Below, piece after piece: positions 13,937 to 63,124 of a DNA stretch of 64,000 nucleotides. Within the stretch, counting starts at the first letter, position 1. Each line of letters opens with the position of its first letter. This DNA comes from an uncultured Gammaproteobacteria bacterium (GTDB lineage Bacteria > Pseudomonadota > Gammaproteobacteria > Steroidobacterales > Woeseiaceae), in the NCBI GenBank assembly GCA_937899415.1, contig CALBPI010000055.1:1-64000 (forward strand), read 5' to 3'. A model generated the notes under the pieces. That model saw only the letters and a list, made by a program, of their open reading frames with translations, searched no databases and was not told the origin of the DNA. A program made the position numbers and the translations under genes.

Positions 13937-13964
13937 CGAGAGCCGGCCCACGGCCGCTCTCGTC
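13935..13964 (+). terminator. GC-rich hairpin at the hppD stop
   Basis: GACGAGAGCCGGCC pairs with GGCCGCTCTCGTC (one bulged C, CAC loop) starting on the stop codon. No T tract follows and its right arm runs into the repeat cluster, so it may be an mRNA 3' stabiliser rather than a true intrinsic terminator. Confidence 0.45.
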
Positions 13965-14308
13965 ATCGCGAGGCGGCGTAGCAGCCAACCGTCATCGCGA
14001 GGCGGCGTAGCGGGCGTGGCGATCTCTCAACGCTGTCGTGACGTTCAGCGGTGCGATGGCCCGACGAGATTGCCGCGGGCACTGCGTGCCCTCGCAATGA
14101 CGGCATGGGTCGTCATCGCGAGCCCGCGTAGCGGTAAATCGTCATCGCGAGCCCGCGCAGCGGTAAATCGTCATCGCGAGCCCGCGTAGCGGGCGTGGCG
14201 ATCTCTTGACGCTGTCGCAGCGTTCAACGGCACGATGGCCCAATGAGATTGCCGCGGGCACTGTGTGCCCTCGCAATGACGGGGTGGGGCGTGTGCCCTC
14301 GCAATGAC
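13961..14308. repeat. Cluster of REP-like palindromic repeats
   Basis: This 410-base gap between hppD and the E2 gene holds no credible gene. It is filled with repeats beginning GTCATCGCGAG(GCGGCGTAGC or CCCGCGTAGCG) at about 13961, 13990, 14110, 14140 and 14169, and inverse copies ending CCCTCGCAATGACG at about 14066-14102, 14248-14281 and 14290-14308. Direct and inverted copies flank GGCGATCTC...GAGATTGCC, so each full element (e.g. 13990-14102) is a roughly 110-nt imperfect palindrome. The same family recurs at 38818, 41866 and 50723. Confidence 0.85.
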
Positions 14309-14347
14309 AAGAAAAGCCCTGCTGGCATCGCCAGCACGGCCTTCTTG
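14309..14347 (-). terminator. Intrinsic terminator of the BCKDH operon
   Basis: On the minus strand, immediately after the E2 stop, AAGAAGGCCGTGCTGGC pairs with GCCAGCAGGGCTTTTCTT across a GAT loop, ending in a T-rich run. This is a classic rho-independent form for the leftward operon. Confidence 0.7.
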
Positions 14348-30428: not shown

Positions 30429-30626
30429 TCAAGCCGACTTGCGCATGACGCGATCGAGCCATGTCGGCAGGCGATCGCTGGCGTCTTCGGTGGCGCGAAC
30501 GGTGCCGACGCTTTCGATGACCTGACCGCGCCAGACGAGTGCGGTGTCGCGCGCTGCGCCCGAGTCGTTATTCGCCGCAATCAGTTCGCGTGAATAGCGT
30601 TGCAAGACGTTTGATTTGGAATCCAT
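30429..30626 (-). CDS. Small protein, VLQxYSRELIAANNDS family, copy 1
   Basis: A 65-aa protein that I do not recognise. It begins MDSKSNVLQRYSRELIAANN and ends LPTWLDRVMRKSA. Both ends match the next small gene (30878-31060), while the middle differs in sequence, so this is a real paralogous pair rather than chance frames. It has no signal peptide or membrane segment. It is soluble and carries mixed charges. A weak GTGAAG lies upstream. It is 33 nt from the convergent glpK stop. A regulator, RiPP-like precursor or small adaptor are all conceivable. Confidence 0.65.
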   Translation of the reverse strand: MDSKSNVLQRYSRELIAANNDSGAARDTALVWRGQVIESVGTVRATEDASDRLPTWLDRVMRKSA

Positions 30627-30824
30627 GTCACTTCACTCAGTCTTCGGTGCCGCCACTGACAAGCTGTCGCCGGGCCCTGCGATATCCCGCATGCAGCGGT
30701 ACATACCCGTGCCACCTTTCTGATCTCGCACCGGTTTTGGCATGGCGGAAGCCTGAACACCGCGTGTGACGTGCCGATGACGGTTTCGATACGGTCCGGT
30801 GACGTCGCAGCGTTTGCGTGCGGA

Positions 30825-30854
30825 CAAAAAAAGGGCGCCCGAAAGGCGCCCTTA
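30825..30854 (-). terminator. Intrinsic terminator after small gene copy 2
   Basis: The minus strand reads AAGGGCGCC, a short TTCG-containing loop, GGCGCCCTT and then a run of seven Ts. A strong textbook rho-independent terminator, 24 nt after the stop of the small gene at 30878. It supports that gene being transcribed on its own. Confidence 0.85.
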
Positions 30855-30877
30855 GTGTGTCTCGCGATTGGCGTGTT

Positions 30878-31060
30878 TCATGCCGTGTGCATCACACGGT
30901 CCAGCCAGTCCGAAAGCTGGTCTGTCTGGTTGGCTTCCTGGCGCGCCATATTGCGGTTCTTCGACGCCGTTCTGCGCGGCGCAGGCGCGGTGCCAGGTTC
31001 TTCACTGGAGTCATTGTTGGCCGCGATCAATTCGCGTGAGTAGCTTTGCAGGACGTTCAT
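30878..31060 (-). CDS. Small protein, VLQxYSRELIAANNDS family, copy 2
   Basis: A 60-aa protein of unknown function, starting MNVLQSYSRELIAANNDSSE and ending LSDWLDRVMHTA. The ATG at 31060 follows AAGGA by 8 nt; an upstream ATG three codons earlier would bury that site. Shares both termini with the 65-aa protein at 30429 (YSRELIAANNDS identical; WLDRVM identical). The middle is Pro/Arg/Asn-rich and probably disordered. Followed by a strong terminator. The real start, ribosome site, terminator and paralogue make this a credible expressed gene. Confidence 0.75.
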   Translation of the reverse strand: MNVLQSYSRELIAANNDSSEEPGTAPAPRRTASKNRNMARQEANQTDQLSDWLDRVMHTA

Positions 31061-31455
31061 GGGGGGCATCCTTAGGTTGCGCAGCATGCGCTGCTGTCAT
31101 TGCGGGGTCTGGGGGTCTCTTTTCGATTCCGTTCTGTAGTTAGATGTGCCGCCGGCGCAATTGGTTGCAACGGACGGCCTAGTAGCCTGTTGCGACTGAA
31201 ACAGTACCATCTGGTTGTGCTTAGTGAGCGACTGGAGCGACGTCTTTCTTGAGCCCATCGCTCCGCATTTCCGAGCTCAGCCGCCGGTGCGTTGGCGAGC
31301 ATTAGTCCGTTGTGCTGGTCGTAACCCTTTGCTGTTTGTCGAGTTCGTAGTCTGATCGTCAGGTGTGACGCACCGATAACGGATTGCATACGTTTTGATC
31401 ACGCCGCGCGGTGCTACACTCTCGCCGGAACAGGGACGGTCTGGGGGAGACCACG
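31061..31455. other. 395-base non-coding gap
   Basis: This gap separates the leftward small gene from the rightward acyl-CoA ligase and must contain both promoters. Short frames here lack ribosome sites and homology. I see no tRNA fold or repeat of the REP-like family. A possible promoter for the ligase is listed separately. Confidence 0.6.
31393..31420 (+). promoter_or_regulatory. Weak promoter candidate for the acyl-CoA ligase
   Basis: TTTTGA (31393) and TACACT (31415) with a 16-nt spacer lie about 36 nt before the ATG. The -35 match is poor, so this is tentative. Confidence 0.3.
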
Positions 31456-33132
31456 ATGGGGGCAACTGAGAATCCGATTCGCGCATTTTGCGAGGCGGCC
31501 ATCGCCACGGCGCCGGAATTCAAACTGGGTGAAGTCGAACTCGAAGGTGTGACCTATCCGGTCTTCGAGAACGCGCCACCCACACTGGGCGCGCTGTACG
31601 CGCACGCCGCAGCAACCTACGGCGACGATACGCTCATCGTCTACCACGATCGGCGCATGAGTTTCGCAGAGGCCGACGCCGCCTCGCGTCAGGCGGCCGA
31701 TGCCCTTCAGCGCACGGGCGTGGAGCCCGGCGATCCTGTGGCGATCGCCATGCGCAATCTGCCCGAGTGGATGCTCGCCTACATGGCGATCACGCGACTG
31801 GGCGCCGTCGCGGTACCGATGAACGCCTGGTGGCAAACCGCGGAGCTCGACTATGCGTTTGGCGATTGCGGTGCGCGCGTCGTCTTCGCGGACGTGCAAC
31901 GCGCCGAGCGGCTGGTTCCCATTGCTGGACCGCGCGGCCTAACCGTCATCACGGCCGACGGCGAAGCCGCGGGCGCGATGACCTGGGATGCTTTTGTCGC
32001 CACGGGTGATGCCGGGGCCGAGGTGCCCGGCGCGGCGCCCGATGATCTCGGCACCATTTTCTACACGTCAGGTTCAACGGGTGCGCCCAAGGGCGTCATG
32101 ACGACACACCGCGCCACAATCCAGGCACTCATGGAGTGGGCGCTGTTGACTACGGCTGATCGCACCGTGCGCGGCGTGGGTCCTGCTGAAGGACGACAGC
32201 TTGGTTTGCTCATGACCGTGCCGCTGTTCCACGTCACGGGTTGCAACGCGATGTTCCTGCTCTCGGTGCTCGGTGGTCAGAAAATGGTGGTCATGCACCG
32301 TTGGAACGTCGACAAGGCACTCGAGCTCATCGAGACGGAGCACCTGACGGCATTCAACGGTGTGCCCAGCATGTCCTTCGAGCTGGCCCGTGCCGCGAAA
32401 GAGAGCGGGCGTGACCTGAGCTCACTCTACGCCGTCTCGGGCGGCGGCGCGGCGCGGCCTTCGGCGCACGTACCCGTGATCGACGAGGCGTTCGAACACG
32501 TTAAGCCCTCAATCGGCTACGGCATGACCGAGACCAGCGCCATGGGCACGGCCAACGCCGGGCAGCTCTACGAAGCCAAGCCCGACAGTGTGGGCCAGGC
32601 CTGCTTCCCGCTCGTCGAGATTCGCATCGTTGAAGAAGATGGCACTGAATGTGCGGCGGGCGAAGCCGGCGAGATCTGGATCAAGAGCATCACGAACATG
32701 CGCGGCTACCTGAATCAGGACCAGGCGACAGCGGAAACCCTCGAAGCGGGCTACGTGAAGTCGGGTGACGTCGGCTACGTCGATGATGAAGGCTTCGTGT
32801 ACATCGTCGATCGCATTAAGGACATCGTCATCCGCGGCGGCGAGAACATCAGCTGCCAGGAAGTTGAGAACGCGCTCTACGAACACCCGGAGGTGGCCGA
32901 AGCTGCCGTGTTCGGACTGCCCGATGAAGCGCTTGGTGAAAAGGTCGTGGCGGTGGTCAGCGCAGGCGCTGATGTGTCCGGCGATGCATTGCGGGGTTTT
33001 CTCGGCGAGCGGCTTGCGCACTTCAAGATACCGGCGCACATCGAGGTGCGTGGCGAGCCACTGCCCAAGACCGCTAGTGCCAAGATCTTCAAGCGCGCGC
33101 TGCGCGAGGCGGCCCTCGAAGCGACCGCCTGA
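31456..33132 (+). CDS. Class I adenylate-forming acyl-CoA synthetase
   Basis: A 558-aa AMP-binding enzyme that activates a carboxylic acid to its CoA ester. P-loop IFYTSGSTGAPKGVMTTH, A5 motif GYGMTETSA, A7 motif YVKSGDVGYVDDEGFVYIVD with A8 RIKDIVIRGGENI, and A10 Lys in PKTASAKIFKRALR. ATG at 31456 after TGGGGGAGA. The medium-chain/steroid-type ligase branch is likely from GGENI and the downstream genes (MaoC, SDR, thiolase after a divergent esterase), but chain length is not decidable. It converges on the esterase with a 6-nt gap. Confidence 0.9.
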   Translation: MGATENPIRAFCEAAIATAPEFKLGEVELEGVTYPVFENAPPTLGALYAHAAATYGDDTLIVYHDRRMSFAEADAASRQAADALQRTGVEPGDPVAIAMRNLPEWMLAYMAITRLGAVAVPMNAWWQTAELDYAFGDCGARVVFADVQRAERLVPIAGPRGLTVITADGEAAGAMTWDAFVATGDAGAEVPGAAPDDLGTIFYTSGSTGAPKGVMTTHRATIQALMEWALLTTADRTVRGVGPAEGRQLGLLMTVPLFHVTGCNAMFLLSVLGGQKMVVMHRWNVDKALELIETEHLTAFNGVPSMSFELARAAKESGRDLSSLYAVSGGGAARPSAHVPVIDEAFEHVKPSIGYGMTETSAMGTANAGQLYEAKPDSVGQACFPLVEIRIVEEDGTECAAGEAGEIWIKSITNMRGYLNQDQATAETLEAGYVKSGDVGYVDDEGFVYIVDRIKDIVIRGGENISCQEVENALYEHPEVAEAAVFGLPDEALGEKVVAVVSAGADVSGDALRGFLGERLAHFKIPAHIEVRGEPLPKTASAKIFKRALREAALEATA

Positions 33133-38817: not shown

Positions 38818-38929
38818 CGTCGTTGCGAGCCGGCGGAGCCGGCGCGGCAACCTCCCAACACCATCGCACTGTTTGTCATTACGACATCGTCAAGAGATCG
38901 CCGCGTCGCTTCGCCCCTCGCGATGACGG
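38818..38929. repeat. REP-like palindrome, degenerate copy
   Basis: Begins CGTCGTTGCGAGCCGGCGG and ends CCCTCGCGATGACG, with CGGCAACCTCC and AGAGATCGCCGCG in between. Same family as 13961-14308 but more diverged. It fills the gap between two convergent genes. Confidence 0.75.
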
Positions 38930-38949
38930 GCGTGTTCCGCACGGCCGCG

Positions 38950-39369
38950 TCAGAGCGCGCTCACACCCCAGAGCTTGGTGTACTTCTCGCAATGAAGTAC
39001 GAGCGTCTGGTAGGCATCAATGTCGATGTCAGCGGGAATCTCGTAGCGCTGCGCGCCCTTGGCCTTTTGCAACTTGGCGATCAACACGCTGCCTGACGTG
39101 GCGTTCTTGGCGTTAACGCTGCCCGCTTCGAGCGGTGAGAGAAACAGCTTCAGGTCCGGTGCGCGACGCGTCTTGAAGCTGTCGTCGAGTTCGAGGAAAC
39201 GACCTTCGGCGGTCTCAACGATTTTCCACGCGCCTGCGATCTTCTGTGATTTCTTCGTCCACGTACCGCCGTGATTGTCGGCGTATGCGGTGTTGCTCGT
39301 CATCAATGCGGCGCCCAGTGTGGCGACGACAATGAGAACGCCTCGTACTATCAGGTTTGCACTCGTCAT
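38950..39369 (-). CDS. DM13 domain exported protein
   Basis: A 139-aa exported protein: signal segment LIVRGVLIVVATLGAALMTS, cleavage near AYADNHGG, then a DM13 domain (WKIVETAEGRFLELDDSFKT, APDLKLFLSPLE, GAQRYEIPADIDIDAYQTLV) ending with the conserved LHCEKYTKLWGVSAL, whose Cys is the proposed redox residue. The DM13 domain is thought to take part in electron transfer. ATG at 39369 after GGAGC. Probably periplasmic. Confidence 0.82.
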   Translation of the reverse strand: MTSANLIVRGVLIVVATLGAALMTSNTAYADNHGGTWTKKSQKIAGAWKIVETAEGRFLELDDSFKTRRAPDLKLFLSPLEAGSVNAKNATSGSVLIAKLQKAKGAQRYEIPADIDIDAYQTLVLHCEKYTKLWGVSAL

Positions 39370-40564: not shown

Positions 40565-40951
40565 ATGTACCGCTTGGTCTCCATCGTTGCGCTTGCGCTG
40601 TGTCTGGCCGGCTGTGGCTCGGGCACGCTGATCCTCAATAAGGACGGTATCGATTGGGAGCCGCGCCGCGATGACGACCGGTCGCGACCGGATTCGAATC
40701 AGCGTTTTGCGTGCCAAATGGACTACAAGTGCACGCAACCGCTGACGAACTTCCAGGAAGTGACGCAGCGTCGTCGCGAGCGCGACCGCGCGGCCAAAGC
40801 ATCCGCAGCGGCACGCGAGCCGGCGCGGTTACCTGCTTTTCGCCTCGACCGTGACGTGAGCTGCGAGTCTGACTGCACCCCTCCCCAGACGCGCAGCCTC
40901 TTGCTGCCCGCCGAACAGCTGCCTGCATTGCCGGACCCGCTGGAGCGCTAG
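40565..40951 (+). CDS. Small lipoprotein, unknown
   Basis: A 128-aa lipoprotein: MYRLVSIVALALCLAGC gives a clear lipobox (LAGC, Cys17). The mature part is polar, with four further Cys (about ACQMDYKC and SCESDC) that could form two disulfides, and a Pro/Arg-rich middle. No domain recognised. Its stop overlaps the convergent GST gene by 4 nt (CTAG). Confidence 0.7.
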   Translation: MYRLVSIVALALCLAGCGSGTLILNKDGIDWEPRRDDDRSRPDSNQRFACQMDYKCTQPLTNFQEVTQRRRERDRAAKASAAAREPARLPAFRLDRDVSCESDCTPPQTRSLLLPAEQLPALPDPLER

Positions 40952-41787
40952 TCGAAGTCAGTAGCGTTGTGGCGTTCTTTAAGCTGTGAGCTCTCGTCAC
41001 CCCAGGTGCGATTGACGCGTCGGCCGCGTATCACGCCGGGGCGTTCGGCGATCTGCTCGGCCCAGCGCACGACGTTCTTGTAAGACGCCACGTCGAGAAA
41101 CTCACCCGCGTCGTAAAGCTTGCCCATGGCCATCCCGCCGTACCACGGGAATGTGGCGATGTCGGCGATGGTGTATTCGTTGCCCGCCAGAAATTCGCGG
41201 TCCGCGAGGTTCCTGTCGAGCACGTCCATCTGGCGCTTCACTTCCATTGAGAAGCGGTTGATCGGGTATTCCCACTTCTCGGGCGCGTAGGCATAGAAGT
41301 GGCCAAAGCCACCACCGAGGTAGGGCGCGGCGCCCATCTGCCAGAAGAGCCAGTTGAAGGTCTCGGTGCGTGCGGCGGCGTCCGTCGGCAGAAACTCGCC
41401 AAATTTCTCGGCCAGGTAGACGAGAATCGAGCCGGATTCAAAAACGCGCGAGTGCGGGTCCGTGCTGCGGTCGAGCAGGGCGGGGATCTTGGAGTTCGGA
41501 TTGATGTCGACGAAACCGCTGCCGAACTGGTCGCCTTCACCGATATTGATGAGCCACGCGTCGTACTCCGCGCTCTCGTGGCCGGCCGCCAGTAACTCCT
41601 CGAACATCACCGTGGCCTTGACGCCATTGGGCGTGGCCAGCGAGTAGAGCTGGTGCGGGTGTTCGCCGACGGGGAGCTCTTTATCGTGCGTGGGGCCCGA
41701 GATGGGGCGGTTGATGTTAGCGAACTTGCCGCCGCTCTCGGCGTCCCAGGTCCAGACTTTCGGGGGGGTGTAGGTGTTGTCGGACAT
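40948..41787 (-). CDS. yghU: YghU-type glutathione S-transferase/disulfide oxidoreductase
   Basis: A 279-aa nu-class GST-like protein. Characteristic N-terminus KVWTWDAESGGKFANINRPI, SGPTHDKELPVGEHPHQLYS, then thioredoxin-fold SLATPNGVKATVMFEELL, GSGFVDINPNSKIPALLDRS, and the helical domain (NWLFWQMGAAPYLGGGFGHF). Proteins of this type bind two glutathiones and reduce disulfides or organic peroxides. ATG at 41787 chosen at the family start. The 5' region lies next to a REP-like element. Confidence 0.88.
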   Translation of the reverse strand: MSDNTYTPPKVWTWDAESGGKFANINRPISGPTHDKELPVGEHPHQLYSLATPNGVKATVMFEELLAAGHESAEYDAWLINIGEGDQFGSGFVDINPNSKIPALLDRSTDPHSRVFESGSILVYLAEKFGEFLPTDAAARTETFNWLFWQMGAAPYLGGGFGHFYAYAPEKWEYPINRFSMEVKRQMDVLDRNLADREFLAGNEYTIADIATFPWYGGMAMGKLYDAGEFLDVASYKNVVRWAEQIAERPGVIRGRRVNRTWGDESSQLKERHNATDFD

Positions 41788-41865
41788 GACAGGCTCCCTT
41801 CGGGGTCTTGTTTGAGGTAGCGCGATGAGACCGGCGCCGGGCGGAGTATATGACAGAGACGAGTT

Positions 41866-41978
41866 CGTCATCGCGAGGCGCGAAGCGCCGCGGCGATCTC
41901 TGCCAGGTTATCGTGCGGTTGCCGGTAGCGCCGGCGTTACGAGATTGCCGCGCCCGCTTCGCGGGCTCGCAATGACGG
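41866..41978. repeat. REP-like palindrome
   Basis: CGTCATCGCGAGGCGCGAAG ... GGCGATCTC on the left, GAGATTGCCGCG ... GGCTCGCAATGACG on the right: a near-complete 113-nt inverted element of the family at 13961. It fills most of the gap before the arsC stop. Confidence 0.85.
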
Positions 41979-50699: not shown

Positions 50700-50722
50700 A
50701 GGGCGGGGCGTAGCCCCGGCCC

Positions 50723-50967
50723 CGTCATTACGAGGAGCGCTTCGCTCCCCGTCATTGCGAGGTGCGCTTTGCTCCCAGTCATTGCGAGGAGCGAAGCGAC
50801 GAAGCAATCTCCCAATGCCGTCGTGCTGTCTGGCAGCACGATGGGGTTACGAGTTTGCCGCGCCCACTGTGTGGGCTCGCAATGACGATCGTGTGAGCGC
50901 GTGCGCGGGTTGGCAGCACGTTGGCGTTACGAGATTGCCGCGCCCACTGCGTGGGCTCGCAATGACG
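50723..50967. repeat. REP-like repeat cluster
   Basis: Three short direct copies (GTCATTACGAGGAGCGCTTC at 50724, GTCATTGCGAGGTGCGCTTT at 50750, GTCATTGCGAGGAGCGAAGC at 50778), then two inverse copies ending GGGCTCGCAATGACG near 50887 and 50967. Individual copies contain small palindromes such as GAGCGCTTCGCTC. The cluster occupies the whole gap between aceA and rraA and stops exactly at the rraA stop codon. Confidence 0.85.
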
Positions 50968-52440: not shown

Positions 52441-53268
52441 ATGAGCAAGCGTTACCGGGCGAGGCAGCGACTCGGCAAGTACCGCATCGTCCGACGCCTG
52501 AACCTGGGGCCGCTCGCAGACGTCTACGCGGCGCAAGACACGGTGCAGCAGATGCCTGTCGCGCTGAAGGTTCCGCACGTGGCGACGGGCAGGCTCGACG
52601 ACGTTGCCGACTTCGTCAGCGAGGCGCGCATCGCGAGCAAGCTCCAACACCCCAATGTGCTTCCGGTTTACAACGCCGCATTCATCGGGGAGCAGTTCGT
52701 GATCGCGATGCCACTGGGCGTGAGCTCGTTGGCCGAACGTCTCGAGCGCCGCATGGCCAACGCGCTGGCCATGGACTTTGCGCTGCAGGCGTTAAATGCG
52801 TTGGCCTACGCGCACGAACACAAGGTCATCCACTGCGACATCAAGCCCGAGAACTTCATCCTGTTCCCCGACAAACAGATTCGGCTTGCCGACTTCGGCT
52901 TTGCGAAAGTCAGCGCGCGCACGATCAAGGGCTCTGGCTCCGGGACCATCGACTACATCGCGCCCGAGCAGGCGCTCGGCAAACCTCGGCTGGCGTCCGA
53001 TGTCTTCTCGCTGGGACTTGTGTTGTATCGCCTGTTCGCAGGCGTGCTGCCCGAGTATCCGTTCGACTGGCCGCCACCGGCGCACGATCGACTCGTTGCC
53101 CGCACCAACCCGGAATTCGCCAAGGTGGTGCGTAAGGCCCTGGCCGTCAGCCCGAAGAAGCGGTTCCCGAATGCGGGCGCCATGCTCGCGGCAGCCCAGC
53201 GAGCCACGAATCCGCCCCGCCGAACGCCGGCGCGGCGACGCAGGACCAAGCGGAGCACCCGGCGCTGA
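52441..53268 (+). CDS. Soluble Ser/Thr protein kinase
   Basis: A 275-aa Hanks-type kinase without membrane helix. Gly loop is degenerate (LNLGPLADVYA), Lys43 in PVALKVPH, Glu in FVSEARIASKLQHPNV, catalytic loop VIHCDIKPENFIL with Asp133 (Cys for the Arg of HRD, so activation-loop phosphorylation is probably not required), DFG Asp151 (LADFGFAKV), and YIAPEQALG. The C-terminus is a very basic tail (RRTPARRRRTKRSTRR) that might bind nucleic acid or membrane. ATG at 52441; an upstream in-frame ATG would add an odd Arg-rich leader. It precedes a PP2C gene by 130 nt. Confidence 0.86.
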   Translation: MSKRYRARQRLGKYRIVRRLNLGPLADVYAAQDTVQQMPVALKVPHVATGRLDDVADFVSEARIASKLQHPNVLPVYNAAFIGEQFVIAMPLGVSSLAERLERRMANALAMDFALQALNALAYAHEHKVIHCDIKPENFILFPDKQIRLADFGFAKVSARTIKGSGSGTIDYIAPEQALGKPRLASDVFSLGLVLYRLFAGVLPEYPFDWPPPAHDRLVARTNPEFAKVVRKALAVSPKKRFPNAGAMLAAAQRATNPPRRTPARRRRTKRSTRR

Positions 53269-53398
53269 CGCCGCTTGCGGGGCGCCCGACCACCATGCGC
53301 AAATCAGAGCTGTCTCACGCCGCAGGCCGCAGACTTAAGGTACTGTCCGGGGTGTCGCGGCCGCGTTTGGGGCAGTGACGGCAGAGAAAGGGAGCCAG

Positions 53399-54241
53399 GT
53401 GAGTCTCGAAGAACAATCCGGACCGCCCCTGACAGGCGGGCGCCTGCTGCCCGAAGCCGACGGGCCAGAACGTATCGGCATCGCCGTGGGCGGCGGTCAC
53501 GCCGAGCTCTTCTGTGCCATCTCGCCGGATAAGCCTGAAGACAATCAGGACAGCACGATGTTGCTCGAGCTCGACGCGCAGACGGCTGTCCTGGCCGTGG
53601 CCGACGGTGCTGGCGGCATTCAGGGTGGCCGACGTGCCTCACGACTCGCCTTGGCCACCGTGCGCGAGGCGCTTCTCACAGCAGACCGTGAAAACCAGCA
53701 GCTGCGGACCATCGTGCTCAACGCTATGGAGCAGGCCAACGAGGCCGTCATCCGAAACACGCGTGGTGCCGCCACGACGCTCACCATTGTCACGGTTGAG
53801 GGCCGAGAGGCACGTGCGTTCCATGTTGGCGATTCGCTGGCGCTGATCACCGGCCAGCGCAGCACCATCAAGCTCCAGACCGTGGCCCACTCACCCGTTG
53901 GCTTTGCGATCGCGGCCGGGTTTCTGACCGAGGAACAGGCGATCTACCACCCCGAGCGTCACATCGTCTCCAACTTTGTCGGTACGGTGGACATGATCAT
54001 CGAGGTGGGCCCGACCGTGAAGCTCGCCAAGTTTGACACCATCCTCGTGGCTTCGGACGGTCTCACTGACAATTTGCATCTGGCCGAGATCATCGAGCGC
54101 ATGCGACGGGGCCCGCTGGACCGTTCACTTGAACAGCTGATCGAGCTCGCGACACAACGGATGTTGCGGCCGAAGCCCATGGAACCGGGCAAGGCGGACG
54201 ACATCGCGGTAATTGTGTACCGCAAAACCGCCGCCTCGTGA
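53399..54241 (+). CDS. PP2C-type protein phosphatase
   Basis: A 280-aa metal-dependent Ser/Thr phosphatase. Motifs: CAISPDKPEDNQDS near the start, VADGAGGIQGGRRAS with Asp69, AFHVGDSLAL, LVASDGLTDNL and KADDIAVIVY at the end, so all metal-binding Asp residues are present. The GTG at 53399 follows AAAGGGAG and fits better than the ATG/GTG eight codons earlier. Forms a kinase-phosphatase pair with the gene upstream and is followed by the envelope genes; likely reverses phosphorylation by one or both kinases of this cluster. Confidence 0.87.
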   Translation: MSLEEQSGPPLTGGRLLPEADGPERIGIAVGGGHAELFCAISPDKPEDNQDSTMLLELDAQTAVLAVADGAGGIQGGRRASRLALATVREALLTADRENQQLRTIVLNAMEQANEAVIRNTRGAATTLTIVTVEGREARAFHVGDSLALITGQRSTIKLQTVAHSPVGFAIAAGFLTEEQAIYHPERHIVSNFVGTVDMIIEVGPTVKLAKFDTILVASDGLTDNLHLAEIIERMRRGPLDRSLEQLIELATQRMLRPKPMEPGKADDIAVIVYRKTAAS

Positions 54242-54407
54242 TGGAAGCGTTACACTGTTCTGGTACGCTAGATCAATCGGTTAGCGTCGCATCAGTCGCT
54301 CAAAACGGGTGCCGCGACGGAAACTCCTCGCGCTGGTAATGCTCTAACAGCTTTGCCGGTCATAGATGCTGGACGGTCGGTTACGGCCGTCGCAAAGGAC
54401 ACCTCCG

Positions 54408-55901
54408 ATGCCAGACAACGCCTTCACAAAACGCTTTTCCGCTGCGCTGCGCCCCGCCAGGCTCGCCGCGCTCGTGGCCAGCCTCGTTATTGCCGCGGGT
54501 TGCGCCTCCATGTCATCTGGGCAGCAGGGCTCCCAGCAGGGCTCTTCTGGTGGCTCGAGCGGCAGCTCGGGCAGTTCCGGATCCTCGGGCGGCAGCTCAG
54601 GCAGTCAGAGCGGCGGTTCGGGCTCATCTGGTGGCCAGAGTGGCAGCCAGGGCGGCAGCTCGGGCAGTCAGAGTGGCGGTGGCAGCCAAAGTGGCGGTGG
54701 CAGCTCAGGCAGTCAGGGTGGTCAAAGTGGCAGCCAGGGCGGCAGTCAGGGCGGCCAAAGCGGCAGCCAGGGCGGTGCGTCCGGCAGCCAGGGTGGTGCT
54801 TCCGGCAGCCAGGGCGGCGCGTCCGGCGGTCAGAGCGGCACACTGGAGTTGCCCGGCGGACTTGGCATGCCGGAAGGCGCGGGCATGCCCGGCGGTATGG
54901 ATGACGGCGGCAGCGGTGGCGACGGTGCTGACGGCGAAGGCGGCGCTGATGGCGACGGCGAGGGTCAGGGCGGTGCCGGCGAAGGCGCCGGTGGTCAGGA
55001 CGGCTCAGGTTCGCAATCGGGCGCGGGCGGCAGTCAAGGCAATGGCGGCGCCGGCACGCAAGGCGGTGGTGACGGCCAGGGCGGCGCGGGTTCCGCGGGC
55101 GGAGCTGGTGGCAGCGGCACACAGGCCGGCGGCGGCGCACCCGGCTCAGGTGCAGGTGGCTTTCCAGGGCAGGGTACCGGTGGCGCTGGTGGCTCGGGCG
55201 GCGACGGACAGGGTCCGGGCGGTCAGGGCCGAGGTGGTAATGGCACCGGTACAGGCGCTGGCACAGGTACGGGAACCGGCACGGGAGCCGGTGGCTTCCC
55301 AGGCGGCACCGGCACGGGTGCAGGCGGTCAAGGGGGCCAAGGGGGTCCAGGCGGCAACGGCGCTGAAGGCCCGGGCGGCTACGGCGGTGGCACGGGCGAT
55401 GGCACAGGCGGCGACGGCACCGAAGGCCCGGGCGGCTATGGTGGCGGCGACGGCCAGGGCGGACAGCCCGGCGAAGGCCCAGGCGGCACGGGCTCGCTTG
55501 AAGATGAGTTCGAACGCTCTCTGGGCGACTTCGACGGCATGATCGCCGGCGAACAGGAAGATGTGACCCAGGTACAGCGCGACACGGGCGGCTTCGGTGG
55601 CGAAGACGACGGTCGTGTTGTGGGCCTCGGCAAGCAGGGGCAGGGCACGCGCACGAGTGGCGGCATCGTCGTCGCAAACGACGGTGGCGGTGGTGGCAAT
55701 GGTGACGGCGCGGGCGAAGTGTCGTCTGTCGAAGCCATCCCCGACGAGATCCTGGCCGAGCGCACCCCCGAAGACATTCCGGACCCGGTTTACGACGACA
55801 TCGTGTCGCGCCAGCTCAGGGAAGCCGCGCTGGCCGAGGAAGACCCGGTAATCCGAGAGAAACTCTGGGACGAATACCGCAAGTACACGGGAATCGACTA
55901 A
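54408..55901 (+). CDS. Gly/Ser/Gln-rich low-complexity lipoprotein
   Basis: A 497-aa lipoprotein: basic leader and SLVIAAGC lipobox (Cys32). Residues about 40-360 are extremely low-complexity. First come tandem G-S-Q units such as GGQSGSQGGSQGGQSGSQ, then GGAGG/GTGTG-type repeats with sparse Asp/Glu. The last 75 residues are ordinary sequence, acidic, with TPEDIPDPVYDDIV and EKLWDEYRKYTGID, and are probably the functional head. Extended, flexible tether is the simplest reading. It starts the run 54408-64000 of short-spaced genes; the 166-nt gap before it holds the probable promoter. Confidence 0.75.
   Translation: MPDNAFTKRFSAALRPARLAALVASLVIAAGCASMSSGQQGSQQGSSGGSSGSSGSSGSSGGSSGSQSGGSGSSGGQSGSQGGSSGSQSGGGSQSGGGSSGSQGGQSGSQGGSQGGQSGSQGGASGSQGGASGSQGGASGGQSGTLELPGGLGMPEGAGMPGGMDDGGSGGDGADGEGGADGDGEGQGGAGEGAGGQDGSGSQSGAGGSQGNGGAGTQGGGDGQGGAGSAGGAGGSGTQAGGGAPGSGAGGFPGQGTGGAGGSGGDGQGPGGQGRGGNGTGTGAGTGTGTGTGAGGFPGGTGTGAGGQGGQGGPGGNGAEGPGGYGGGTGDGTGGDGTEGPGGYGGGDGQGGQPGEGPGGTGSLEDEFERSLGDFDGMIAGEQEDVTQVQRDTGGFGGEDDGRVVGLGKQGQGTRTSGGIVVANDGGGGGNGDGAGEVSSVEAIPDEILAERTPEDIPDPVYDDIVSRQLREAALAEEDPVIREKLWDEYRKYTGID
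54560..54850 (+). repeat. Tandem coding repeats (GGYAGCCAGRGYGGY-type units)
   Basis: Imperfect tandem units of 9-15 nt built on GGCAGCCAGGGCGGC encode the Gly-Ser-Gln tract of the lipoprotein. Such repeats are prone to length change by slippage. Confidence 0.75.
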
Positions 55902-55907
55902 TTCAGC

Positions 55908-57179
55908 ATGGTTACACGGATACGCAGTAAGAGCGCCGCACTGGCACGGACCGCACTGCTGGCAGCCCTCGCGCTGCTCGGTGCCTGCACGACCCGCGAA
56001 TACGTCGCGCCCGACATCGATCTCGCATCGGCACCCGAGGAAGTGCCCGAAGTGCGCCTGCTCGACATCGGCATCATCGAATTCGAATCGGGATTGCCTG
56101 AGAACGAGGACGATATTCCCGACGAGGTGTACCCGGACATTCGGCGCGCCGAGGCGCGGTACTTCCCCTATCACTTGCGTACGACCTTGCAGTCAACCGG
56201 CCATTTCGGCGCCGTAAGGGTCATCCCCAACGTCAGCGTCGTCACGGATCTCTACGTGGGCGGCGAGGTCCGCCATTCCGACGGCAACAAGGTGCAGCTC
56301 GAAATGTGGGCGTCGGATGCCTCGGGCAAGCGCTGGTTCACGGGCAAGTACAACGCTCGCACGGACCGCAACGACTACTCGCGTTCGCGCGACCGTTCGC
56401 TGGACCCGTATCAGAACGTGTTCAATGAATTCGCGAACGACCTGTTCGACGCGATGCAGGATTTCACCGACAGCGAGATCACCGAGATGCGTACGGTGTC
56501 TCGTATGCGCTTCTACGCCGAGATGGCGCCCAGCGTGTTTGGTGATTACATCGAGACGACGCGCCGGGGCAATGTCGAAGTGGTTCGCCTGCCCAACGAC
56601 ACGGACCCGATGGTCGACCGGCTCGATCGCATTCGCGAGCGCGACGCGCTGTTCCTCGACACGCTTAACGAGCACTACGCAAACTTCTACTACGGGATTG
56701 CGCTGCCTTACGCCGACTGGCGGGAGGCCTCGCGTGAGGCCGAGCTCGAGTACCAGCGCTTGCGTCGCAGCGCGATCCTGCGTGGCCTCGCGGGGGTGGC
56801 CATGGTGGCTGCGGCCACTGAGATGAGCCGCGGTGATGCGGGCGACAGTGGCACTGAACGCCGCACGCGGTCGACGCTGAAGAACTACGCCATCATGGGC
56901 GGTCTCGAGGTGTTTGCCTCGGGTTTCGGGCGCCTGGCAGAGGCACGTCTGCAGCGCCAGTCGATCGCCGAGCTCTCGGAGTCGTTCGGACAGGAAGCGG
57001 CACCCATGATCGTGGACGTGCAAGGCCAGACGCGCCGGCTCACGGGCACGGCGGCGGCGCAGTACGACCAGTGGCGCGAGCTGCTGCGCGAGATCAACGA
57101 GCGTGAGACGGGTTTTCCGACGGCGGCTGACATCTCGATCAACGGTCGCACCTCGGAACAGGCTGCTGATGGCGGCTAA
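55908..57179 (+). CDS. Large lipoprotein of the kinase cluster, unknown
   Basis: A 423-aa lipoprotein (LLAALALLGAC, Cys27). The mature part contains no recognised domain: IEFESGLPENEDDIPDEVYP, HLRTTLQSTGHFGAVRVIPN, DLYVGGEVRHSDGNKVQLEM and DASGKRWFTGKYNARTD form a beta-rich N-terminal half reminiscent of lipoproteins that assemble with secretion or envelope machines, followed by helical regions (about 240-400) with a hydrophobic patch (ILRGLAGVAMVAAATEM). It is 6 nt after the Gly-rich gene and overlaps the next start by one nt (TAATG), so it belongs to the same operon. Confidence 0.72.
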   Translation: MVTRIRSKSAALARTALLAALALLGACTTREYVAPDIDLASAPEEVPEVRLLDIGIIEFESGLPENEDDIPDEVYPDIRRAEARYFPYHLRTTLQSTGHFGAVRVIPNVSVVTDLYVGGEVRHSDGNKVQLEMWASDASGKRWFTGKYNARTDRNDYSRSRDRSLDPYQNVFNEFANDLFDAMQDFTDSEITEMRTVSRMRFYAEMAPSVFGDYIETTRRGNVEVVRLPNDTDPMVDRLDRIRERDALFLDTLNEHYANFYYGIALPYADWREASREAELEYQRLRRSAILRGLAGVAMVAAATEMSRGDAGDSGTERRTRSTLKNYAIMGGLEVFASGFGRLAEARLQRQSIAELSESFGQEAAPMIVDVQGQTRRLTGTAAAQYDQWRELLREINERETGFPTAADISINGRTSEQAADGG

Positions 57180-59548
57180 TGCAACCATCCGAGGTTTCCA
57201 CCACAACGCGATTCGCTGATCGCTATACGCTTGTAGACCGGCTGCACCTGGGCGCTGCCAGCGAAGTCTGGCTTGCCGAGGACGCGCGCGCCGGAATCGC
57301 TGTTGCACTAAAAATCCTCGCGCGTGGTGCTGGCGAGCGTGACCCCATACGCGACGGCTTCGAGCGCGAGTTTCAACTCGCGCGTGGTCTCAATCATCCG
57401 CACACCGTTCGTGTGCTCAGCTGGCACGACAGTGACCGACCCGCCTACGCGATGCAGTACATCGACGGGACCGATTTTGCCGATCTGGTAAGCCGTTCCT
57501 TTGAGGTCTGGGCGCCTGTCCTTCTCGTCATGACTGACACGCTCGTCTACTGGCACCGCAAAGGCGTTGTGCACGGCGACGTAAAACCCAGCAACCTGTT
57601 GCTCGACCGCCGCGGCGTCGCCTACCTCGCGGACTTCGGGTCTGCCGCGACTGTGCACGGCGACAGCGACGCGGGCCGCGGTGGCAGTGCGGCTTATGCG
57701 AGCCCCGAGCAGCAGGCCGGGCAATCGCCGGACCCTGCTGACGACGTCTTTGCCATGGCGCGGGTCATCGCTGAGCTGGCCACGGGTGACCCCGCCACGG
57801 CGCTTATTGAGAATCTGCCGCTGCCGGTTCTGCGCTGGGTCGGAAACGCACGCGGCGCGCGCGGTGAGCGGCCGTCAATGGCTGATCTTTGCGAGGCGCT
57901 CAAGGCTTCGGGTGTCACGCGCGGCCAGGTGGATCTCAAGGCCCTCGACGTCACACTGCGCAGGCCGGCGGCGTCCGTCGCAGGCAGCGTAGGTTCCGAA
58001 GCCGCCGAGACCGGTGGCGCGCTGCCGCACGGTGCCTTCGAACGTCCTGCATCGGTGCAGGAGCCCACAGGCGGGATCCGTCCGCGTACGGTCGCCCTCG
58101 GGCTTGCCGCAATCGTCTTGTTTGGTGTGCTGTTCACGCAAGGCTTGCGTTGGCTGGGGCCCGATACATCGGCGCCTGACACGGACACTGAGACCGTGGC
58201 TGACACCGCAGACGCGCCGGCGGCCGGCGAGACAGAAGGCGACGCACCCGCGGTCGACGGGGAGCGCGAAGCCGATGCTGAGGCCGCCGAAGAGGAAGCG
58301 CCGGTCGACGAAGAAGATCGCGTCGCGCAGCGCAGACAAGCGGATGAATCCGTGGCGCGCCTGTTGTCGCTTGTCGATGTCCTTGAGCGTCGCGGCGTCG
58401 AAATCTGGGGCGGTGCCGAATACGTCCGAGGTCGTGAACGTTACGCAGAAGGTGACCGCGCCTACCTGGCCGGCGATTACACGCTCGCCAACGAACGCTA
58501 CGACGACGCCATCGCCGCGCTCGAACCGCTAACCGAGCAGATCGAGGTTGAGTTCGAGGCCGCGATGCGTGACGGTGACGCGGCGCTGTTGGCCGAAGAC
58601 AGCGCGGCGGCGCGCCGTGCGTTTGAACGTGCGCTGGCCATCACGCCGGGTAACTCGCTTGCGGAGCGCGGTCTGGAACGCGCCAACAACCTGGACGCCG
58701 TTCTGGCAGAAGTGGCGGCGGGACGCGTTGCCGAGCGCGCTGGCGACCCGCGCGCGGCGCTGGCGCGCTACGAAGCCGCGCTCGACCTTGATGCTGACTG
58801 GGAGCCGGCGCAGGAAGGCCGTACGCGCATGCAGGCCGCCATCAGCGCCTCGGAATTCCAGCAGCGCATGTCGCAGGGGTTCGCAGCCCTCGACGAGGCA
58901 CGATTCTCGGCGGCGCGCGAGGCGTTCAACGCGGCGGCGCGCATCGATCCCAGCGACCCGGCGCCCGGCGATGCGCTGCTGCAAGTGCGCCTCGCGGAGC
59001 GGCTGGAGAGAATCGACGGTCTGTCGCGCACCGCGGAGCAACAGGAGGGCGATGAGGACTGGGCAACGGCACTCGACACCTGGAACGATGTGCTCGAGAT
59101 CGACGAGAGCCTCGACGTCGCCCGCCAGGGTGTCGCGCGCGTGCGCAACCGCATGTCGCTCAATCGTGCGGCAGACGCTGTCATCGACGATCCAGACCGA
59201 CTCTCGGAATTGCCGGCGCTGCGCAGCGCGTCCAATTTGCTGGGCCGTTTGCAGACACTCGAGCCGCGCGGGCCTGAACTGAACGAGCGTATCGATACGC
59301 TCCAGAACATCCTGCGCGAGGCGGCCGTGCCCGTCGCCGTGACGCTGCGGTCTGACGGCGCCACGACGGTAACGCTGTTGCGGGTGGCACAGCTTGGCGC
59401 GTTTGAGCAGACCGAAGTCCGACTGCGTCCGGGCAAGTACGTGCTGGTCGGTTCGCGGCGGGGTTACGTCGACGCGCGGCGCGAGTTTCGTATCGCAGCT
59501 GGTGAGCCGCCGCCGTCGGTCTACATCGCCTGCGAGCAACAGATATGA
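57179..59548 (+). CDS. Transmembrane Ser/Thr kinase with long helical-repeat tail
   Basis: A 789-aa protein. Kinase domain residues about 14-250: degenerate Gly loop (LHLGAASEVW), Lys45 in AVALKIL, catalytic loop VVHGDVKPSNLLL (HGD, Asp134), DFG Asp152 (LADFGSAATV), ASPEQQAGQSPDPADDV. One helix at about 302-325 (VALGLAAIVLFGVLFTQGL). Acidic linker, then repeated helical TPR-like units (ERYAEGDRAYLAGDYTLANE, GDAALLAEDSAAARRAFERA, VAERAGDPRAALARYEAALD), and a C-terminal PEGA-like beta domain (VPVAVTLRSDGATTVTLLRV ... RPGKYVLVGSRRGYVDARRE). The kinase faces the cytoplasm and the tail the periplasm. Overlaps neighbours by 1 and 4 nt. Confidence 0.85.
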   Translation: MQPSEVSTTTRFADRYTLVDRLHLGAASEVWLAEDARAGIAVALKILARGAGERDPIRDGFEREFQLARGLNHPHTVRVLSWHDSDRPAYAMQYIDGTDFADLVSRSFEVWAPVLLVMTDTLVYWHRKGVVHGDVKPSNLLLDRRGVAYLADFGSAATVHGDSDAGRGGSAAYASPEQQAGQSPDPADDVFAMARVIAELATGDPATALIENLPLPVLRWVGNARGARGERPSMADLCEALKASGVTRGQVDLKALDVTLRRPAASVAGSVGSEAAETGGALPHGAFERPASVQEPTGGIRPRTVALGLAAIVLFGVLFTQGLRWLGPDTSAPDTDTETVADTADAPAAGETEGDAPAVDGEREADAEAAEEEAPVDEEDRVAQRRQADESVARLLSLVDVLERRGVEIWGGAEYVRGRERYAEGDRAYLAGDYTLANERYDDAIAALEPLTEQIEVEFEAAMRDGDAALLAEDSAAARRAFERALAITPGNSLAERGLERANNLDAVLAEVAAGRVAERAGDPRAALARYEAALDLDADWEPAQEGRTRMQAAISASEFQQRMSQGFAALDEARFSAAREAFNAAARIDPSDPAPGDALLQVRLAERLERIDGLSRTAEQQEGDEDWATALDTWNDVLEIDESLDVARQGVARVRNRMSLNRAADAVIDDPDRLSELPALRSASNLLGRLQTLEPRGPELNERIDTLQNILREAAVPVAVTLRSDGATTVTLLRVAQLGAFEQTEVRLRPGKYVLVGSRRGYVDARREFRIAAGEPPPSVYIACEQQI

Positions 59549-61989
59549 GTACGTCCATCACAGCCATCGTGTGGCGCCACGGGGGCACACAGGCGGAGTT
59601 CGGGCTCGACGCGTTGCCGCTGGTCATCGGCACCGTCAGCGCAGCGAACATTCGTATCGCGGGTCCGGGTGGGCAGACGCTCGCGCAAATCGACGTGATT
59701 GACGGGAAGCCCTTTGTGCAGCCCATCATGCGACCGTCGCCATTGGCGCTCGACGGCGATGCGCTGGATGGCTCCCGCATGCTTTCGGACGGGCAGACAC
59801 TGTCGGCGCACGGTGTCGACATCGATGTGCGTATCGAAGACGCGTCGCTGCAGCTCGTTCAGCACAGTCGGGCGAGCTTGTTCGAAACCCTGCCGCCCGT
59901 TGTTGAGCGCGAGGACGACGACAGCCCGATCGTTGCCGAGGAATGGCGGCCCAGTGCAGGTGCGCAGCCTGTAAAACGCGGCCGGCGTTGGGTTGTGCCT
60001 GTCATTGGCAGCGTGCTCGCTGTCATGGCCTTTGTCGTCTTCTGGCTTACAACCTCGGTGGCACTGCGCCTCGAAACAACGCCCGTCACACCCGGTGCCG
60101 TATTCATCGAGGGCGGTGGCCCGGCGTTGCGTATCGGCGACCGCTGGCTGCTGCGGCGCGGCGTGCACCGCTTCGTTCTGCAAAGCCCAGGCTACGTCGA
60201 TCTCGACCAGCGCATCGATATCGACGGCAGCACCACGACACTCGTGCTCGAACAGCAACCGTTGCCCGGTCAGCTCGAAGTGCGCACCGATGCGACTCGC
60301 GAGGGAACGGGCACCGTCACGCTTGTCGACGGCGAGGGCAACCAGTATGAGACCGAGGCGCCGGCGCGCTTTGAAGGCCTGTTGCCGGGCACCTATGAGG
60401 TCACCGTCGCGCAACCGGGCTATCTCGAGTGGACGGACCTGGTCGCCGTGACAGGACTGACCGAGACGCACCAGCTCGACATCGATCTGGTGCCCGACTA
60501 CGCCCGCGTGGCCATCGAGACGATCCCGGCCGGTGCGAGCGTGTCCTCGCTCGACACCAACACCACGCTGGCCGAGGCCACGCCCGCAACCGTCGAACTC
60601 GCCGATGGCCGGCAGAAGGTGCTCATTGCGCTCGATGGCTACAAACCCGTCGAACGCACCTACCGTGTGTTCGCGAACAGCGCGGTTGAGGCCGAGCCCA
60701 TTACGCTCGAGCCCGCCGACGCGCAGCTGACGGTCACGAGCCAGCCTGCAGGCGCGAGCGTTACGCTCGACGGTCGCTACCAGGGGCGGACACCCATCAC
60801 ACTGGCGCTGGAACCCGATCAGCAGTATGACCTGCGGCTCACGCGACAGGGTTTTGCGCCGCAGTCACGGCGCGTGGCGCTGCCTTCCGCCACGCAAAGA
60901 CGCATGAGTTTTGCGCTCAACGCGCGCAATGGTGATGTCACCGTGCGTGCGGTTCCCGCGGACGCAGAGATTCTCGTTAACGGTCGTGTCGTCGGCGCCG
61001 GTACGGCACAGGTGTCGCTGCCCGCGATCCCGCAGCGCATCACGGTGCGCAAGCCCGGTTATATCGAGCAGCAGCGTACGGTAACTCCCCGACCGGGTTT
61101 CACACAGACCGTCGACGTCCGCCTGCAGACGGCTGAAGCCGCGCGCCTGGCGAGCATTCCGCAGCGCATCGAAGTCGCCAACGACCATGCCTTGCGCTAT
61201 TTCCGGGGTGGGACATTCCAGCGCGGGACCTCGCGACGCGAAGCCGATCGCCGCGCCAATGAAACGCTGGTCGACGTCCGCATCACAAAACCGTTCTATA
61301 TGGGCGTCACGGAGGTCACCAACGCCCAGTTCGCGGCCTTCCGCTCGGCGCATGATCGTCGCGGCGACGTCTACGCGGCCATGGCCGGCGACAACAACCC
61401 CGTTGTGAATGTGAGTTGGCAGGATGCCGCCGCCTACTGCAACTGGCTCAGCGCGCAGGATGGTCTCGACGATGCCTACGTCGGTGAGTTTGGTTCGCTG
61501 GTTCCTGTGGTGCCGGCGACCAACGGTTACCGGCTTCCCACTGAGGCCGAGTGGGTATGGGCCGCGCGTTACGCCGGGCGCCCGGGCAATCCGCGGCGCT
61601 TTGGCTGGGGGCCCAACATGCCGCCCGCAAACAAAAGCGCGAACCTCGCCGACGAAACAGCGTCTGATCTAGTGAGGAACGTGTTGATCGACTACCGCGA
61701 CGGCTTCCCGGCAACGGCACCCGTGGGCAGCTTTGCCCCCAATGCGGCCGGTGTCCATGACCTTGACGGTAATGTCGCGGAGTGGATTCAAGACTACTAT
61801 GCATCAAGTCCCGACACGGACGGTCCGCAGATCGATCCGTTCGGGCCTGAGAAAGGCACAGACCACGTGATTCGCGGCGCGGGCTGGCGCGATGCCAATG
61901 TGCAGCGCGTTCGACTGGCGTACCGAGGCTTCGGCAAAGACCCCGAGGTCGATATCGGTTTCCGTATTGTGCGGTTTGCCGACCGCTGA
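59545..61989 (+). CDS. FHA-like, PEGA and FGE/SUMF1-domain membrane protein
   Basis: An 814-aa protein. Residues about 1-110: beta-rich FHA-like fold (FGLDALPLVIGTVSAANIRI ... LDGSRMLSDGQTLSAHGVDI), without the usual phospho-binding Arg/Ser. One membrane helix at about 149-172 (VVPVIGSVLAVMAFVVFWL). Residues about 180-530: four or five PEGA-type repeats (e.g. AQLTVTSQPAGASVTLDGRY, GDVTVRAVPADAEILVNGRV). From about 544: FGE-sulfatase/SUMF1 fold (ITKPFYMGVTEVTNAQFAAF, NVSWQDAAAYCNWLS, YRLPTEAEWVWAARYAG, GNVAEWIQDYY, GFRIVRFADR). The two catalytic Cys of formylglycine-generating enzymes are absent (RGAGWRDANVQRVRLAYRG), so it is probably a binding module. ATGA overlap with the kinase. Confidence 0.85.
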   Translation: MSTSITAIVWRHGGTQAEFGLDALPLVIGTVSAANIRIAGPGGQTLAQIDVIDGKPFVQPIMRPSPLALDGDALDGSRMLSDGQTLSAHGVDIDVRIEDASLQLVQHSRASLFETLPPVVEREDDDSPIVAEEWRPSAGAQPVKRGRRWVVPVIGSVLAVMAFVVFWLTTSVALRLETTPVTPGAVFIEGGGPALRIGDRWLLRRGVHRFVLQSPGYVDLDQRIDIDGSTTTLVLEQQPLPGQLEVRTDATREGTGTVTLVDGEGNQYETEAPARFEGLLPGTYEVTVAQPGYLEWTDLVAVTGLTETHQLDIDLVPDYARVAIETIPAGASVSSLDTNTTLAEATPATVELADGRQKVLIALDGYKPVERTYRVFANSAVEAEPITLEPADAQLTVTSQPAGASVTLDGRYQGRTPITLALEPDQQYDLRLTRQGFAPQSRRVALPSATQRRMSFALNARNGDVTVRAVPADAEILVNGRVVGAGTAQVSLPAIPQRITVRKPGYIEQQRTVTPRPGFTQTVDVRLQTAEAARLASIPQRIEVANDHALRYFRGGTFQRGTSRREADRRANETLVDVRITKPFYMGVTEVTNAQFAAFRSAHDRRGDVYAAMAGDNNPVVNVSWQDAAAYCNWLSAQDGLDDAYVGEFGSLVPVVPATNGYRLPTEAEWVWAARYAGRPGNPRRFGWGPNMPPANKSANLADETASDLVRNVLIDYRDGFPATAPVGSFAPNAAGVHDLDGNVAEWIQDYYASSPDTDGPQIDPFGPEKGTDHVIRGAGWRDANVQRVRLAYRGFGKDPEVDIGFRIVRFADR

Positions 61990-62000
61990 GGAGAACACAC

Positions 62001-62300
62001 ATGACCCTGAAACGAGGCATGTTTCTGGCGCTGATTCTGGGCGTCTCATTGGCCGCTGCGGGCATTGCCCAGCAATCCGACGACTCGGATACCCCGGAAA
62101 CCACCACCGAGGGCGAGCAAGCCGCTGAAGGCACCGATGGGCCCACGGAGCAAGAGGTGCTTGACGCCGAAGACGCCGCCGTCGACGAGATCCTCGAAGA
62201 CGCCGAACTCATCTACAAGGAAGATGAGGACTCCGAAGACTTCATCCCGTCGCAGCAAGTCTCGGCGGATCAGTCGCTCGACTATCCCATCGATATCTGA
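62001..62300 (+). CDS. Small acidic exported protein
   Basis: A 99-aa protein with a signal peptide (FLALILGVSLAAAGIAQQ) and an extremely acidic, probably disordered mature part (EQEVLDAEDAAVDEILEDAE and EDEDSEDFIPSQQ). GAGGAGA ribosome site; 11 nt after the PEGA/SUMF1 gene and 17 nt before the channel gene, so clearly part of the operon. No known domain. It could bind a basic partner domain or metal in the periplasm. Confidence 0.7.
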   Translation: MTLKRGMFLALILGVSLAAAGIAQQSDDSDTPETTTEGEQAAEGTDGPTEQEVLDAEDAAVDEILEDAELIYKEDEDSEDFIPSQQVSADQSLDYPIDI

Positions 62301-62317
62301 CGCCCCTAAGGCTCCGC

Positions 62318-63124
62318 ATGAAAAAGAAAAACCTCCCCACCGAATTCGTCTTCAATCTGTTTGCGCTGGCCATTGTGATCGTAATCGTTGAAGGTTTTTA
62401 CGTGTCGGTCGTTCGGCCAACAGCCGCCGAGGTGATCGCCGAACAGAACCTGGAAGCGAAAAACAATCCGGATTACGTCCGTGAGCGCTCGCCCTGGGTG
62501 CTCATCAAGGACTACGAGCAGGAGGCCTGTTTTGTCCTCATGTTCTGGGCGCTCGCCATCATGGGCTTCAAAGCCCGGACGCTTATCCAGGAGCGCGAAC
62601 TGCTTGACGAGGAGCTCGTTTCCGTTCCAGATGGCATGCGCGTGTTGCCCGAGGACACGCGCGAGTTTTCGCGCCAGATCCAGGCGCTCGAAACCAACAA
62701 ACGGCGCATGTTGCTGCCGCGGGCGTTGCTCAACGCGCTGCAGCGCTTCGCGTCGACGCGGAACGTCCAGGACGTCTCATCATCGACGCACACGATCATG
62801 GAGTCCGAGGCCGATCGACTCGAGGCAGAGCTCTCGATGATCCGTTACATCTCCTGGGCCATTCCGAGCGTCGGCTTTATCGGAACCGTGCGCGGTATCG
62901 GTGAGGCGCTCGCCCAGGCCGATCGCGCGGTGCAGGGCGACATCGCGGGCGTGACGCAGAGCCTGGGTGTTGCGTTTAACTCCACATTCATCGCGCTCAT
63001 GATCTCGATCTTCCTCATGTTCCTCGTGCACCAGCTCACGTTGATGCAGGAACGTCTCGTGTTTGACACCGAGGCCTACTGCGACGATCGGCTCGTGCGC
63101 CACATGTACGCGGAGCAACACTGA
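62318..63124 (+). CDS. MotA/TolQ/ExbB proton channel family protein
   Basis: A 268-aa inner-membrane protein. Helices: about 10-32 (FNLFALAIVIVIVEGFYVSV), 68-86 (ACFVLMFWALAIMGFK), and the diagnostic pair IPSVGFIGTVRGIGEALAQA and SLGVAFNSTFIALMISIFLM. The IPSxGFIGTVRGIG and GVAFNSTFIAL segments match the channel signature of the family. A loop of about 35 residues between helices 1 and 2 and a large cytoplasmic loop follow MotA/TolQ topology. No TolR/ExbD or MotB gene is visible within the window; a partner may lie beyond the right edge. Confidence 0.88.
   Translation: MKKKNLPTEFVFNLFALAIVIVIVEGFYVSVVRPTAAEVIAEQNLEAKNNPDYVRERSPWVLIKDYEQEACFVLMFWALAIMGFKARTLIQERELLDEELVSVPDGMRVLPEDTREFSRQIQALETNKRRMLLPRALLNALQRFASTRNVQDVSSSTHTIMESEADRLEAELSMIRYISWAIPSVGFIGTVRGIGEALAQADRAVQGDIAGVTQSLGVAFNSTFIALMISIFLMFLVHQLTLMQERLVFDTEAYCDDRLVRHMYAEQH

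Follow-up and report, generated by a model that had tools for sequence, protein, structure and literature searches.

A probable lineage-specific pair of small-protein genes with a shared upstream element

The window, i.e. the whole stretch of 64,000 nucleotides analysed here, holds two paralogous ORFs for proteins of 65 and 60 aa, and it is very likely that both are real genes and true kin. The two ends of the proteins are kept constant while the codons behind them have changed, and one 30-bp element lies upstream of each ORF. Because the genes look real, their control sequences match and nothing similar turned up in the collections searched, they probably make up a lineage-specific small-protein family.

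A preliminary description of this DNA had listed the two ORFs, their shared N-terminal and WLDRVM motifs around a variable middle, and the lack of a recognised family. All of this holds, with the ends constrained and the centre freer in both the alignment and the codon differences. The shared upstream element is new here. It is this shared private element that makes the family worth testing.

The gene pair and its surroundings

The source genome comprises 3.94 Mb in 102 contigs and is 98% complete, and the window has a GC content of 64%. Copy 1 sits 251 bp downstream of copy 2 on the same strand (Table 1). The pair is flanked by a glpK-like FGGY kinase gene ending at 30396 and by an acyl-CoA-synthetase-like ORF, both on the plus strand; the latter is identified by eye and its ATG is taken at 31456. 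No likely partner gene stands beside the pair. For copy 2, we take the ATG at 31060 behind TAAGGAT as the start, while the mechanical ORF is 69 aa long via an upstream ATG.

The acyl-CoA-synthetase-like gene (31456-33132, plus strand) has a second copy at 43% identity within the same genome. In the 24 other genomes searched it gives 0 matches at E 1e-100, so synteny is uninformative.

Table 1. Positions of the paired genes, their conserved blocks and the accompanying signals in the window
Feature	Position	Strand	Remarks
Small protein gene, copy 1	30429..30626	minus	ORF, 65 aa, ATG start; 48% identical to copy 2; synonymous-biased differences
Small protein gene, copy 2	30878..31060	minus	ORF, 60 aa; ribosome site; paralogue of copy 1
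N-terminal block NVLQRYSRELIAANNDS, copy 1	30561..30611	minus	17 codons, of which 9 differ from copy 2 (8 synonymously, 1 non-synonymously)
N-terminal block NVLQSYSRELIAANNDS, copy 2	31007..31057	minus	17 codons, of which 9 differ from copy 1 (8 synonymously, 1 non-synonymously)
C-terminal block WLDRVM, copy 1	30444..30461	minus	inside a segment amphipathic if helical
C-terminal block WLDRVM, copy 2	30890..30907	minus	inside a segment amphipathic if helical
Upstream element, copy 1	30764..30793	minus	137 bp ahead of the start codon; 24/30 identical to the copy 2 element
Upstream element, copy 2	31363..31392	minus	302 bp ahead of the start codon; 24/30 identical to the copy 1 element
Intrinsic-terminator-like hairpin behind copy 2	30831..30853	minus	10-pair stem and T-run

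One of the genes had been credited earlier with a good ribosome site and a strong terminator. Both signals are present at copy 2, but both are modest. The anti-SD duplex of TAAGGAT (-5.8) beats the median of random window positions (-3.1) but falls short of their best-10% limit (-6.2), and the terminator scan finds 2 sites against 1.4 in shuffles. At copy 1 the ribosome site is poor (-3.0, close to the median of random positions) and the same scan shows no terminator-like site, and the promoter scan found no sigma-70-like promoter. Since the terminator-like hairpin (30853-30831) stands between the copies, they look like separate units. From the DNA we infer that both genes are expressed.

Selection on the encoded proteins

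The two proteins are 48% identical, and NVLQ-YSRELIAANNDS and WLDRVM are invariant in their alignment, so that the block common to both is NVLQ(R/S)YSRELIAANNDS at the N-terminus and WLDRVM at the C-terminus. In the reciprocal genome search each copy retrieves the other, with E of 1.5e-9 and 5.2e-9. No third copy is seen in the own genome, where the remaining rows have E of 0.12 and 0.17. There, with up to 3 mismatches allowed, the N-terminal motif pattern gives a single extra match (with 3 mismatches), equal to the backward control.

Within the end blocks, 16 of the 26 aligned codons differ between the copies and 13 of these 16 differences are synonymous. The synonymous excess has a p of about 2e-6 at a random synonymous rate of 0.24, and 12 of the 18 nucleotide changes fall at third positions (p 0.004), although both p-values are optimistic because the blocks were selected by protein similarity. 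Among 36 pairings of reading frames between the copies, the in-frame sense pairing comes out best with a score of 119, ahead of a runner-up at 59.

The predominance of synonymous changes therefore argues that selection has acted at the protein level since the genes were duplicated, and between the end blocks of the two paralogues compared it has the form of purifying selection. The silent changes point to a duplication that is old, with the ends held by selection and the middle left to drift.

A duplicated non-coding stretch that is open by chance would also agree with the failure to find homologues elsewhere. The GC3 values of 0.70 and 0.72, slightly under the 0.76-0.85 of seven genes of the window, lean the same way. 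This explanation is nevertheless scarcely credible, as the differences are biased to synonymous ones, even with the p-values taken as optimistic, and the in-frame pair is by far the best of the 36.

Distribution among genomes

None of the family libraries searched names these proteins. Pfam returns nothing significant (best E 0.045, DUF7112, which scores 14.6 bits where the cut-off is 27), and neither do PHROGs (best E 0.29 and 0.19) or the sequence search of the PDB (a designed TIM barrel comes first, at E 0.1), while NCBIfam and PADLOC have no match. The string SRELIAANN has no match in the literature search.

Among the family genomes, 107 with the own one, no convincing homologue is found in the 106 others, which include no other genome of the genus. 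Single-protein searches at E <=1 give weak rows in 16 of the 40 relatives (best foreign E 0.034) and in 47 of the 107 family genomes (best foreign E 0.0023), with the own genome included in both counts. At wider range, profile A1 was run on overlapping samples of the order, the class and the phylum, with up to 15-16 candidates scored per genome. It reaches E <=0.1 in 38 of 396 order genomes (best foreign 0.0041) and E <=0.01 in 4 of 369 class genomes (best foreign 0.0018), the own genome included and no match convincing in either sample. In the phylum sample, 1 of 398 genomes reaches E <=0.001 and it is the own genome.

When 2 mismatches are tolerated, the N-terminal motif pattern occurs in 17 of the 107 family genomes, own included, and its 19 foreign rows compare with 12 for the backward control. 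Loci were available for 18 of the 19, and none of these 18 open frames has WL..V. Similarly, when both proteins are run by tblastn against 102 foreign loci, among them viral ones, 171 rows result, with a best E of about 1e-4 in that small set. We read 40 of the 61 rows of copy 1 and 25 of the 110 of copy 2, and a script check covered all 171. Five rows span both end blocks; two of them contain stops (L003 and L066) and none has both motifs. Weak rows that had become loci likewise include none with both end motifs. The locus L031 has WLDR in common with the pair, but its frame resembles ParA by eye.

Viral contigs contain 6 matches to RELIAANN-type DNA, all in unrelated frames, and a scan of them proposed 42 candidate stretches, none confirmed. 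Contig scans of GTDB 220 genomes, among which the entries closest to the own genome may be missing, proposed 597 and 70 candidate stretches and again none is confirmed. With copy 2 as the only query, phages and plasmids give nothing significant (best E 2 and 0.4).

A relative as similar to the copies as they are mutually should have shown in the searched genomes, since that similarity corresponds to an E of about 1e-9. As judged from these searches, no convincing homologue appears outside the lineage, as would be seen with a lineage-restricted family. Lineage-restricted orphan small-protein families are a common kind. A lack of homologues with the conserved motifs had been named beforehand as a result that would speak against the pair. 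None is found beyond the two copies, but the codon conservation between the copies argues for genes.

Orphan small genes with a patchy distribution are often parts of toxin-antitoxin systems or mobile passengers, and this counts for reading the pair as toxin-antitoxin genes or as passengers of a phage or mobile element. Such an origin is very unlikely here. Nothing significant comes from the phages, plasmids (copy 2 only), viral contigs, PHROGs or PADLOC, and each gene apparently stands alone with its own control region.

The FESNov catalogue is said to gather families that have no recognised domain, are limited to a lineage and are under selection on the protein. The pair resembles these novel families of uncultivated taxa (PMC10849945) in lacking a recognised domain, in being seen only in one lineage and in its signs of protein-level selection. 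It differs from them in being seen in one genome and as two paralogues.

An upstream element common to both genes

Comparison of both flanks yields a pair of 30-mers that are 80% identical. Their 24 identities are reached by 0 of 200 paired dinucleotide shuffles, the best of which has 22. At up to 3 mismatches the element occurs at two places in the whole 3.94 Mb genome, each upstream of one copy, and a looser core pattern with 2 mismatches adds 1 site on contig C92 against 2 for the backward control. The leaders between element and start are not alignable, their best 30-mer matching at only 17/30, so that the element was apparently retained as the sequence around it diverged.

The copy 1 element reads CGTATCGAAAC-CGTCATCGGCA-CGTCACACGCG and the copy 2 element CGTATGCAATC-CGTTATCGGTG-CGTCACACCTG. 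Both are readable as three 11-bp direct repeats, with each step opening CGT. Their self-match at lag 11 is 14/33 and 13/33, the highest fraction among lags 3-19, which is a weak periodicity in two elements that are not independent.

The copy 2 element is, in addition, 63 bp upstream of the divergent acyl-CoA-synthetase-like ORF and might act on that gene too. Two other readings of the element were discarded by eye: a short upstream ORF across it, which has no start there in copy 1, and an ECF-sigma promoter, for which the spacing is wrong.

Candidate type of regulator

Regulators of the OmpR/PhoB family recognise direct repeats; the sites of PhoP from M. tuberculosis are built of 7-bp motifs set 4 bp apart, and its binding is tighter where three or four motifs follow one another (PMC4832192). 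The elements would be like such operators, the Pho box and the PhoP repeats, in that they can be read as 11-bp direct repeats, three in a row. By this analogy, the layout is weak evidence for a regulator of the OmpR/PhoB type. The genome has 10 near-full-length PhoB-like matches, 1 of them above the family cut-off.

The likeness does not extend to PhoB itself. The E. coli Pho box repeat is TGTCA, and the repeat unit CGTNAY of the elements differs from it. When set against an E. coli Pho box, the elements score 11/14 and 10/14, and 11 sites in the window alone, element 1 included, score at least 11. The genome's own pstS-like gene, which is named by eye, shows no TGTCA direct repeat (at least 8/10 matches) within 148 bp upstream of its proposed start. 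Hence a PhoB site or a Pho regulon membership is not supported.

Predicted structure and possible mode of action

Two AlphaFold models, built from the two-row alignment, are poor, with mean pLDDT of 59.7 and 61.8 and pTM of 0.27 and 0.29. They have an N-terminal and a C-terminal helix, whose borders are placed differently, and a middle of the least confidence. The C-terminal segment is strongly amphipathic, its helical moment being reached by 0.5% and 0.2% of shuffles, whereas the N-terminal moment is unremarkable (8% and 10%). The charges are near neutral (10+/9- and 7+/8-) and the proteins are without cysteine.

The preliminary description had offered either two binding motifs joined by a linker or a leader/core precursor. 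The former fits the amphipathic C-terminal segment and the low-confidence models. The latter is not favoured, and RiPP-like leader/core precursors or a bacteriocin pair are highly improbable. The genes are small and duplicated with a conserved N-terminus, as such precursors could be, but the C-terminus is conserved as well and the variability lies in the middle, in place of the conserved leader and variable C-terminal core of RiPPs. The absence of cysteine and of any family match speaks against them too.

Starting from the two ORFs, the constraint on their proteins and an element at only two places in the genome at up to 3 mismatches, all read directly from the DNA, we tentatively take the pair to be small proteins under common control that make contacts through both ends and act as adaptors or modulators, with clearly less than even confidence. 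A lineage-restricted gene would have been duplicated long ago, and each of the two paralogues would encode a soluble protein some 60 aa long. The conserved helices at its two ends, of which the C-terminal one is amphipathic, may serve as contact surfaces, with a linker under weak constraint between them, and the small protein would be an adaptor or a modulator of a host protein. One regulator would bind the shared upstream element and switch both genes, and the likeliest type would be an OmpR/PhoB-type response regulator on the 11-bp direct repeats.

The main rival is a helical hairpin, in which the ends fold back on each other and dimerise into one small bundle, e.g. an anti-sigma-like or protease-adaptor regulator. 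Two helices are predicted, the C-terminal one strongly amphipathic and the N-terminal one less so, and both ends are conserved together. However, no confident packing is seen in the models and the linker content is unlike between the copies. We regard the hairpin as rather unlikely.

The pair could also be amphipathic peptides lying on a membrane or granule surface, as the C-terminal segment would allow. The near-neutral charge and an N-terminal moment that is ordinary against shuffles stand against this, and we think it quite unlikely.

Returning to the two-ended adaptors, we consider one elaboration of them unlikely. It is that they form a new family whose two genes are a private regulon under one operator of their own and whose members combine the same terminal contact helices with different linkers. 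The lineage could thereby exchange one linker variant for another while the partners stay the same.

In working style, the pair is like small bacterial regulators and adaptors in its size of about 60 aa, its probably soluble and helix-rich character and its single-gene units, but no sequence similarity to them was found. It adds a well-supported small-gene pair left unnamed by the family libraries searched. Unlike many orphans, it comes with an internal control in the form of two diverged copies and with a shared cis element, and its translation and regulation are therefore directly testable.

Other features of the window

Dispersed repeats around CGTCATYGCGAG, which we take to be REP-like, occur at 13960-14310, 38818-38997, 40769-41977 and 50720-50967. 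At up to 1 mismatch, CGTCATYGCGAG has 20 matches against 2.4 expected. For five of the matches an inverted copy follows at a distance of 99-101 bp, and there are local tandem units of 27-29 bp. By eye, the upstream element and these repeats have a 12-base stretch in common, while the whole element is not repeated.

A plus-strand cluster at 52456-63121 encodes two Ser/Thr kinases, a PP2C phosphatase, a protein with PEGA and FGE-sulfatase domains and a MotA/ExbB protein, together with two further ORFs that have no Pfam match at E 0.001. Its make-up suggests a phospho-signalling and envelope system. At 54414-55898 lies a Gly/Ser-rich low-complexity ORF of 495 aa with degenerate tandem repeats of 12-45 bp periods.
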